64,000 bases of DNA from assembly GCF_039655775.1 (NCBI RefSeq), contig NZ_JBBYXJ010000002.1, positions 1,426,001 through 1,490,000 of the forward strand, read 5' to 3'. The notes beneath the pieces are model-generated. The model had not been told where the DNA came from and searched no databases. It was given only the letters and a program-made list of their open reading frames with translations. A program made the position numbers and the translations under genes. The first letter of the stretch is position 1, and every line of letters begins with the position of its first letter. The stretch comes from Iodidimonas sp. SYSU 1G8. GTDB taxonomy: Bacteria > Pseudomonadota > Alphaproteobacteria > SMXS01. Of this stretch, positions 48,311 through 63,753 are shown piece by piece.

Positions 48311-48404
48311 GTTCGGTCTCGTTTGAAGGGCACCACGGGTGCGTGTTCTGGTTGCTCAACGCGGCGCCGAGACGTCAGTTCCGGTGGCTGGACCGTGGCG
48401 GTCT

Positions 48405-52767: not shown

Positions 52768-53436
52768 TCAGGAGGCGCATGAGCTGTCGTGGCCATAGCC
52801 ATGATTGAGGGCCCAGATCGCCGCTTCGGTGCGATTTCTCGCACGGATCTTCTTGAACACGGTCTTGATGTGAACCTTAACGGTTCCCTCGGCGATATTC
52901 AGCCGCTTGGCGATGATCTTGTTGGGATAACCGTGGGCAAGGCAATTGAGGATGCACTGCTCGCGCGCCGACAAATCCGGGGGAAGATCGTTCGCCGGCT
53001 CGGCCATCCGCAATGACCGACCCGATACCAGGACATCGACGAGGTCGCTGGGCAACACTTTCTCGCCGGTGATGACGAGCATCAGCGACTGCTTGAGCGC
53101 ATCAGGCGTGATATCGCGCAGCAGATAACCGTTGGCCCCGGCCTTCATGGCGGCCTTGAGCTGCTGCAGTGACATCTGGTCCGACAGCACCACGACTGGG
53201 GTCTCGGTGGAACTGCAGAGATGCGTCAACTGCTGTTCCTCCTCGCTGGCTTGTTCGAGTTGCGTGGTGAGCGCGACCAGGATGAGGGAAGGCTGCTGCT
53301 CGGCCGTCAGGTCTTCGGTCTGACTGATGTCCGGCGCTTCAAGCGTCACGGTGAAAACAGAATCGCGAAGCAGCATTTTGAGCCCTTCGCGAAAGAGTTT
53401 GCTTCGGTCGACAAGCCATATGGCATGTTGCCCCAT
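52768..53436 (-). CDS. LuxR/NarL-type regulator with atypical receiver (CsgD-like)
   Basis: 222 residues. N-terminal receiver-like domain (about 4-125) with IWLVDRSKLFREGLKMLL and GANGYLLRDITPDAL; a C-terminal LuxR helix-turn-helix (about 155-210) with LSAREQCILNCLAHGYPNKIIAKRLNIAEGTVKVHIKTVFKKI (core KIIAKRLNIAEGTVKVH). Where receivers carry the phosphorylated Asp, this one reads SLILVALTTQ. That matches CsgD, the curli regulator, whose receiver is also incomplete. It is close to the CsgG/HfaB genes and is their likely regulator. Confidence 0.85.
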   Translation of the reverse strand: MGQHAIWLVDRSKLFREGLKMLLRDSVFTVTLEAPDISQTEDLTAEQQPSLILVALTTQLEQASEEEQQLTHLCSSTETPVVVLSDQMSLQQLKAAMKAGANGYLLRDITPDALKQSLMLVITGEKVLPSDLVDVLVSGRSLRMAEPANDLPPDLSAREQCILNCLAHGYPNKIIAKRLNIAEGTVKVHIKTVFKKIRARNRTEAAIWALNHGYGHDSSCAS

Positions 53437-53896: not shown

Positions 53897-53921
53897 GGAA
53901 CTCAGCCGGAAAGATCGCGTT
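53897..53921 (+). promoter_or_regulatory. exact EcfG-type (general stress) promoter
   Basis: GGAAC (53897-53901), 16 bases, CGTT (53918-53921), an exact match to GGAAC-N16-CGTT. The start site would be near 53927. Confidence 0.75.
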
Positions 53922-53926
53922 TCAAC

Positions 53927-54041
53927 AATATCCCTCCCCCGGGGATACCGCTTCTGCGGTGACTTCCTAGACTTCCGACCTCCGCCACATGCGGGGACGG
54001 CAGGGCGCCCGGATCCCCCCTCCCGGGCGCCCTCATTTTTT
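53927..54041 (+). ncRNA. candidate stress-induced small RNA (GsrN-like)
   Basis: About 115 nt between an exact EcfG promoter and a perfect terminator. The 5' hairpin TATCCC/GGGATA (53929-53934 with 53942-53947) exposes the C-rich loop TCCCCCG. A second hairpin is ACCGC-TTCT-GCGGT. A single-stranded stretch carries CTTCC, CTTCC and CCTCC (53963-53983), all complementary to Shine-Dalgarno-type sequence. A third stem CTCCGC/GCGGGG precedes the terminator. Caulobacter GsrN, an EcfG-controlled sRNA, is also described as having an exposed C-rich 5' loop. Homology is a hypothesis. Confidence 0.7.
54003..54041 (+). terminator. rho-independent terminator of the sRNA
   Basis: GGGCGCCCGG (54003-54012) and CCGGGCGCCC (54023-54032) pair perfectly around a C-rich loop, with a T-run at 54036-54041. 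Confidence 0.92.
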
Positions 54042-54335
54042 CTCGCGTTCCGTTGCGTCGTACTGCAAGGCGGTGGCCATTCGCCAGCCGGCCTGATCGG
54101 TCAGAAACGCGAAATCATTCCCCAGCTCCACCGTTTTCCAGAACCTGCAGGCTCTCGGCGCGGCGCTCCCGGTTGGGCGGATCACAACGTCGAATGCATG
54201 GCCATCCCGATCCGTCCAGGCAAACCCGCCGCGCTGACCGTCTGGACCCGACTCCGACCATGGCTCGATCCCGCCGGTCAGGTCGCGCAGGCGGTATACG
54301 ACATCAAGCATCATTTCCGACCGCATCGCATGCAT
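54033..54335 (-). CDS. small hypothetical protein
   Basis: 100 residues from ATG 54335, with GAGGGA about 8 bases upstream. Strand-rich middle (GGFAWTDRDGHAFDVVIRP, FAFLTDQAGWRMATALQY). No family recognised. Its stop lies inside the terminator of the opposite-strand sRNA. Coding is plausible but unproven. Confidence 0.45.
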   Translation of the reverse strand: MHAMRSEMMLDVVYRLRDLTGGIEPWSESGPDGQRGGFAWTDRDGHAFDVVIRPTGSAAPRACRFWKTVELGNDFAFLTDQAGWRMATALQYDATEREKK

Positions 54336-54512
54336 TCTCGATTCCCTCACGCTGCGTGAGCCCCATCCTTTGTCGGACTATGGCTCTTGGGCAAGAAAGA
54401 ATAACTTTTAGTGATGTGGTTTGACCGGTGAAGATTGAGGGCGATATAGTATGTTCATGAAATGTTCCTATAGGCGGCGTGCTTTGGACCGGTGGCAAAA
54501 TCCCTCTTCGAA

Positions 54513-63461: not shown

Positions 63462-63508
63462 GTCCAAAATGGGCACTCCCTCTGCTGTCGGCTTGCGATA
63501 TCGAAGAA

Positions 63509-63558
63509 GGTCCGACATCGCGGGAGCGCCGACAAATCCCGCCAGAGGGGCCCGGACC
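63509..63558 (-). ncRNA. structured leader element, copy A (likely terC RNA motif)
   Basis: Reading the minus strand: P1 is GGTCCG/CGGACC, one strand of the internal loop is GGCCCCTCTG, P2 is GCGGG/CCCGC, and the other loop strand is GATGT. It lies in the terC leader. Copy B on the other strand has the same loop strands. The P2 fifth pair is G-C here and C-G in copy B, a compensating change. The name is from memory of a described terC motif; the ligand is unknown. Confidence 0.65.
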
Positions 63559-63665
63559 ACGGGTTGAGCGCGAATTGGGGATGCGAGCGGCCGTCGTCAA
63601 GGGCGTGCGGTAGATTTTTTTCGCACCTTGAATTTGTCTCCGGAATCGCCACTTGAACGGCACTG

Positions 63666-63706
63666 GGTCCGGGCCCCTCTGGCGGCGGTTGCCGCGATGT
63701 CGGACT
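63666..63706 (+). ncRNA. structured leader element, copy B (likely terC RNA motif)
   Basis: Plus strand: GGTCCG, then GGCCCCTCTG, GCGGC/GCCGC around GGTT, GATGT, and CGGACT. It is copy A with a shorter P2 loop and a compensating pair, in the leader of the DUF4112 gene. Confidence 0.65.
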
Positions 63707-63753
63707 CTTCCACCTGACGGGCGCTTGTGGCGTCTGAATTCTGGGAGTTTCCC

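Follow-up and report, generated by a model that had tools for sequence, protein, structure and literature searches.

A predicted small RNA (sRNA) of approximately 113–115 nt, very probably driven by an EcfG-type sigma factor, is encoded on the + strand at positions 53927–54041 of the window, the 64,000-nt stretch of Iodidimonas sp. SYSU 1G8 DNA analyzed here. Its start is placed at 53927–53929 on the basis of the promoter, and its end falls within the T-run at 54036–54041. The best explanation for the locus as a whole, with a probability of about 0.7, is a trans-acting sRNA of the general stress response (GSR) that would be EcfG-driven and act by anti-Shine-Dalgarno (anti-SD) pairing. We infer its transcription, EcfG dependence, Hfq binding, targets and direction of regulation from the sequence, its conservation, structure prediction, the encoded stress system and the shared promoter motif. 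Judged from the sequence, the locus is more than a chance occurrence, and for this conservation is decisive, beyond the promoter string and the fold.

Promoter, fold and conservation of the predicted sRNA

An exact GGAAC-N16-CGTT sequence, as proposed in an earlier sequence-only reading of this DNA, is present at positions 53897–53921 (+ strand), and consists of GGAAC as the −35 element (53897–53901), a 16-nt spacer (53902–53917) and CGTT as the −10 element (53918–53921). By itself, this string is weak evidence: it occurs twice in the window versus 0.48 times expected (two or more in 8 of 100 shuffles), and 61 exact sites are found genome-wide versus 37 for the reversed pattern. The other exact site in the window (48358–48382, − strand) is located 47 nt upstream of a short hydrophobic ORF. 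In an alignment of five genus members, GGAAC is kept in register in four (G001 carries GGTAT in its place) and NGTT in all five, the spacer is 16 nt in each, and the distance to the first hairpin is constant. Mean pairwise identity is 0.84 for the −35 element and 0.82 for the NGTT/−10 element, 0.39 for the spacer and 0.28 for the leader, and in 20-nt bins it steps up from 0.42 to 0.89 at position 53930. Because the boxes are kept while spacer and leader have diverged, and identity rises at the predicted start, the pattern is that of a genuine promoter with its start site. CGTT is separated from the first stem by 7 bases, one more than the sequence-only reading had counted.

Downstream of the start, mean pairwise identity in the same alignment is 0.86 for hairpins 1 and 2, 0.68 for the linker, 0.52 for hairpin 3 and 0.92 for the terminator. 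Hairpin 1 (53930–53946, + strand) has the family consensus AUCCC-UCCCY-GGGAU, with a stem that is present in all five members without substitutions. The stem TATCCC (53929–53934)/GGGATA (53942–53947) with the C-rich loop TCCCCCG, described in the sequence-only reading, can be read directly from the sequence; in the computed fold, the stem is AUCCCU/GGGGAU and the loop CCCCC, a slight difference. The loop is predicted to be unpaired with a probability of approximately 0.9 in all five members, and thus provides the exposed C-rich 5′ loop that characterizes GsrN. Hairpin 2 (53947–53960, + strand; ACCGC-UUCU-GCGGU), also anticipated, retains its stem in all members and varies in the loop.

The linker that follows (53961–53974, + strand) is single-stranded, being mostly unpaired in the computed fold, and contains the invariant, anti-SD-like sequence GACUUCCU; in the five aligned members, GACTTCCT does not vary. 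The three CTTCC/CCTCC motifs noted earlier are all present (CTTCC at 53963–53967 and 53972–53976, CCTCC at 53979–53983), but invariance across the five members is limited to the first; the second is found in two (G000, the genome studied here, and G006), and the third sits within hairpin 3 (53975–54000, + strand), which is variable in length.

The transcript is predicted to end at an intrinsic terminator (54003–54041, + strand), identified from the sequence, the alignment and the structure test. Its perfect 10-bp stem, as claimed before, is formed by GGGCGCCCGG (54003–54012) and CCGGGCGCCC (54023–54032), enclosing the loop ATCCCCCCTC and followed by TCATTTTTT, with the T-run ending at 54041. 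A consensus scanner that allows loops of up to 8 nt missed this terminator, the loop of which is 10 nt. The loop, (A)AUCCCCCCUC, is nearly invariant in the five members and computed to be unpaired in all four for which it could be counted, the folded fragment of G006 ending inside the terminator. The RNA therefore has a conserved unpaired pyrimidine motif at each of three places: loop 1 (CUCCCC), the linker (GACUUCCU) and the terminator loop (AUCCCCCCUC). C-rich terminator loops recur within the genus on a different stem, with a small lipoprotein-like gene ending in one at its 3′ side (AAUCCCCCCUC at L037:2016-2142 and AUAUCCCCCC at approximately 1500–1600 of L128).

Folding of positions 53925–54041 yields −52.7 kcal/mol (z = −3.95), a value matched by none of 200 shuffled sequences. 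In a structure test on the five sequences, 98.6% of the cells are paired, versus 37–47% for slid versions of the structure. Compensatory changes are seen at two base pairs, which both belong to hairpin 3; 57 of 500 shuffles reach as many, and all 500 reach the number of pair types. Hairpins 1 and 2 give no covariation support, because they are invariant.

The absence of a protein gene between promoter and terminator was borne out: there is no + strand ORF of at least 60 aa, nor a reading frame conserved across the five homologues, and a coding transcript was therefore rejected. The nearest gene upstream (52768–53436) is on the − strand. On the other side, a small convergent ORF of 105 aa (54033–54350, − strand) stops at the terminator, and is a neighbor rather than a part of the sRNA. 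Neither Pfam nor NCBIfam matches it at E 0.001; its homologues, with 38–45% identity in tblastn, adjoin the sRNA in the loci of all five relatives, indicating a conserved neighborhood.

A BLASTn search of 60 genomes gave matches in six, the genome itself and five of its six congeners, and in none of the other 53. The homologues are full-length in four of the six congeners, and the five aligned members have promoter spacing, hairpins and terminator in common; the fifth congener (G003) has the 3′ part only. No homologue was found in the sixth (G004, a genome that is 78% complete) with BLASTn or a covariance model. This model (R1) was built from the five genus sequences, which score 135–157.5 bits by construction, and across the seven genus genomes it adds only the partial copy of G003 (60.3 bits). 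That copy (C2:109103-109227 of G003, locus L010) is without the promoter and 5′ hairpins, its conserved part starting after the linker; as it lies 147 nt from a contig end, the loss may reflect a rearrangement or an assembly break alike.

A class-wide covariance search with strict filters (385 genomes sampled) returned 31 genomes at E ≤ 0.01, four of which belong to the genus, and the best match outside the genus scored 34.4 bits. Ten outside matches were inspected; they have mainly the terminator in common and were not counted as homologues. Likewise, two weak matches in the genome itself (C2:870615 and C2:1162642) are terminators behind protein-coding frames. Scanning 84,980 species with a pattern of hairpin 2 and linker gave five matches, of which three are genus members (WGNW01000060.1, G006; CAMDTB010000080.1, G001; JALHLV010000003.1, G002) and two were judged by eye to be chance. 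Viral contigs gave no match, and neither did a plasmid collection searched with 8 kb around the site. Sequence comparison thus indicates that the sRNA is apparently genus-specific, although a strongly diverged homologue elsewhere may have been missed.

The general stress system and the putative EcfG regulon

The genome encodes PhyR on contig C2 (352.7 bits, cut-off 240), two NepR proteins (C2:592016 and C1:236235) and three sigma factors that we take to be EcfG-like (C2:598416-598988, near C1:176557 and near C2:1511682), an assignment based on neighborhood and model matches. One of them is encoded approximately 6 kb from nepR; their best models are of the PRK12547/PRK12546 type, with scores below the cut-offs of those models. 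GGAAC-N16-TGTT is found upstream of nepR and GGAAC-N16-CGTT upstream of the neighboring kinase gene. The sRNA thus combines an exact EcfG-type promoter with a genome that encodes PhyR, NepR and an EcfG-like sigma factor, as expected of a member of an EcfG regulon. It is not located near the GSR locus: the sRNA lies at C2:1479897, 888 kb from the nepR gene on the same contig, and no similar sRNA gene was seen at the genome's own phyR-nepR locus.

The 61 exact promoter sites were examined in two rounds, with 20 chosen by eye first and the remainder later. In thirty, an SD sequence and a start codon no more than 150 nt away open a frame of 60 aa or longer. This is an uncontrolled count, from which the sites in front of the CsbD and superoxide dismutase (SOD) genes fall out, as the stretches retrieved for some sites were short. 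From the first 20 sites, ten proteins were scanned, and nine have a Pfam match: CsbD, Fe/Mn-SOD, sigma-70 region 2, DUF2231, GST, glycine zipper, transglutaminase N-terminal, cNMP-binding and DinB-like. Two Ku-like proteins and one DUF1328-like protein were also recognized by eye downstream of such sites. General stress regulons of alphaproteobacteria typically include several of these protein types. The proposal that an EcfG-type promoter drives a non-coding RNA whose 5′ loop is C-rich is therefore well supported, as genus members keep the promoter, the stress system is encoded and stress genes share the motif.

Among the 61 sites, only that of the sRNA and one other lack a qualifying start codon and have a terminator downstream. 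The other (C2:1547620-1547644, on the same replicon) also has an exact GGAAC-N16-CGTT, followed by an intrinsic terminator approximately 133 nt downstream, and marks a second candidate EcfG-driven sRNA (G000:C2:1547620-1547789; L189:201-370, also in L193). It was found in two of the seven genus genomes, the second being G006, in which 84% identity over positions 66–173 of 176 is accompanied by an exact GGAAC-N16-CGTT upstream. Its own locus (L189) has no Rfam match. A convergent ORF beside this candidate resembles a serine beta-lactamase by eye.

Candidate targets and mode of action

Under the proposed mechanism, stress would cause PhyR to free an EcfG-type sigma factor from NepR, and RNA polymerase carrying this factor would start approximately 6–8 nt after CGTT, producing an RNA of about 113 nt with its 5′ end at hairpin 1. 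After termination at the intrinsic terminator, the RNA would serve as a trans-acting sRNA of the alphaproteobacterial general stress response, exposing its three unpaired pyrimidine-rich motifs. The U-tail would probably bind Hfq, and the C-rich motifs could pair with G-rich SD regions, mainly blocking the translation of mRNAs for uptake and catabolism. That the RNA acts by pairing through its C-rich, anti-SD motifs is likely.

Candidate targets were sought through the complement of loop 1, GGGGAGGG, which is found 2–12 nt upstream of an ATG at 20 positions in the genome, versus 2 for the reversed control. At 12 of the 20 sites, the frame that begins there is 100 aa or longer. Ten of the 12 genes were compared with Pfam, and encode two TonB-receptor plugs, an MFS transporter, two SnoaL-like proteins, an oxidoreductase N-terminal domain, an alpha/beta hydrolase, a cyclase and a DUF547 protein, with one lacking a match. 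The predicted pairing energies of loop 1 with the 12 candidates range from −18.4 to −23.0 kcal/mol.

In the six relatives, GGGGAGGG precedes an ATG at 120 sites, one of which is the complement of the sRNA itself in G001. Based on 20 of these, fetched because their spacers recur, the sequence is kept before the MFS gene in six of the seven genomes, before a SnoaL-like gene in at least four and before a TonB receptor gene in at least three. G003 and G004, in which the sRNA is not intact or not detected, still keep it before the MFS and SnoaL-like genes. Because these two genomes keep such sites, ribosome binding alone explains them, and for this reason repression of uptake and catabolism is something we infer rather than read from the sites.

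The model of repression is drawn from anti-SD sRNAs of the NfeR1/AbcR type (PMC10746234, PMC3927594) and from SisA (PMC12559287), as far as the excerpts of these sources go. That the sRNA would mainly repress transport and catabolism is a tentative proposal, somewhat less probable than not. Activation is the alternative, since by analogy sRNAs with a C-rich loop can also activate, as GsrN does on katG and PmaR on most of its targets.

Rather than binding mRNAs, the C-rich loops might titrate another G-rich sRNA or a protein, so that the RNA would be a sponge or decoy. A precedent is Caulobacter CrfA, which according to the excerpted source has recently been reinterpreted as a sponge for the alpha-R8 siblings, whose pyrimidine core it pairs with (PMC12559287), and the terminator loop is conserved beyond its apparent need for termination; yet the C-rich loops match G-rich translation starts, which are abundant, and we consider a sponge improbable.

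Comparison with known sRNAs

The sRNA resembles GsrN, which in the available parts of its description is an RNA of approximately 106 nt that depends on sigma-T/EcfG, raises KatG, is processed endonucleolytically to a stable 5′ isoform and pairs with the katG leader (PMC5869019). Both have an EcfG-type GGAAC…CGTT promoter, a length of about 100–115 nt, an exposed C-rich 5′ loop and an intrinsic terminator (PMC5869019, same parts). Unlike GsrN, which could be compared by description only, the sRNA is not linked to phyR-nepR, exposes three conserved pyrimidine motifs and has no obvious target in katG. In the 1.4 kb examined upstream of katG there is no GGAA[C/T]-type promoter, and no long G-run precedes its start, so that a GsrN-style katG target is not supported.

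A close similarity to GsrN, as put forward in the sequence-only reading, could thus not be established, given that no full-length homologue was found outside the genus, no Rfam family matches and there is no proximity to phyR-nepR. The same source, as excerpted, places GsrN homologues detected by BLASTn only in Caulobacteraceae, typically beside the GSR locus with C. crescentus as the exception, and could connect GsrN between families through position and promoter but not through sequence (PMC5869019). With promoter type, length, 5′ loop and 3′ terminator alike, and C. crescentus GsrN itself located away from the GSR locus, the sRNA might still be truly orthologous to GsrN, having diverged too far to be recognized by sequence and moved from the GSR locus; its 5′ loop would then serve to activate the mRNAs of catalase or other stress genes. 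This is however improbable, to much the same degree as a sponge: the class-wide search of 385 sampled genomes under strict filters gave no full-length similarity outside the genus, no GsrN-like gene was recognized at the genome's own GSR locus, the katG leader is without a long G-run, and the GACUUCCU linker and the terminator loop are absent from the GsrN description as excerpted (PMC5869019).

Less probable still is that there is no independent sRNA and the locus is a leader, read-through product or terminator of neighboring genes with an incidental promoter-like string; in its favor, the motif alone is frequent, a convergent ORF ends at the terminator and combinations of an EcfG promoter with a C-rich stretch are not enriched across the class (387 genomes, with 21 matches versus 18 for the reversed control), but the nearest upstream gene is on the opposite strand, the promoter is in register in four of the five members and no conserved ORF lies inside.

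At the sRNA, neither the window nor the loci of five genus members match any Rfam family at gathering score, and the same is true of loci L189, L037 and L046. The sub-threshold matches, to 6C (RF01066; 26.8 bits, gathering score 47), CC3664 (RF01530; 21.7 bits, 60), alpha-r14/NfeR1 (RF02344; 21.2 bits, 58.8) and CcsR1 (RF02791; 17.9 bits, 65.3), were discounted as similarity in composition or in the terminator; those to 6C, CC3664 and CcsR1 are weak and arise partly from the C-rich terminator. Elsewhere in the window, two terC RNA elements (RF03067) are located on opposite strands approximately 100 bases apart (63503–63563, −; 63661–63712, +).

In its architecture, the sRNA is like alpha-r14/NfeR1 in having several conserved C/U-rich unpaired motifs complementary to the SD sequence; its motifs are not identical to CCUCCUCCC of the NfeR1 anti-SD loops, and NfeR1 is, in the portion of the source available, under the control of LsrB and NtrC (PMC10746234). 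With PmaR of Agrobacterium tumefaciens it has in common an accessible C-rich loop as the pairing region, but PmaR, as excerpted, consists of one long stem with a large loop, and acts as an activator on most targets, at a distance from the ribosome-binding site (PMC6234868). Alpha-R8/SisA of Caulobacter likewise has a pyrimidine-rich pairing core and represses mRNAs of TonB-dependent receptors and transporters, as guessed here, whereas its core UUUCCUCCCU is single-stranded and its architecture and gene neighborhood, in the excerpted account, are different (PMC12559287). ReC64 of Rhizobium etli is, like the sRNA, a small non-coding RNA and is directly controlled by EcfG (EcfG1-dependent); compared by description only, it differs in being 88 nt long and located downstream of phyR-tcrY in the GSR locus, according to the parts of the report at hand (PMC3892343).

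By analogy, the sRNA would work like GsrN or like an anti-SD sRNA, yet we file it as neither. Within the literature surveyed, as excerpted, GsrN (PMC5869019) and ReC64 (PMC3892343) are the EcfG-dependent sRNAs with direct evidence. The most far-reaching reading, a genus-specific family of EcfG-driven, multi-motif anti-SD sRNAs that is independent of GsrN and forms a repressor arm silencing the TonB-receptor, transporter and catabolic mRNAs that share GGGGAGGG, alongside a second EcfG-driven sRNA, is rather unlikely in all its parts together. A lineage-specific RNA with the layout of GsrN would suggest that a C-rich-loop RNA under a stress sigma factor evolved repeatedly. This would give an activating sigma factor a repressor arm, comparable to that of E. 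coli RpoE with MicA and RybB, as outlined in the excerpted source (PMC8103513).
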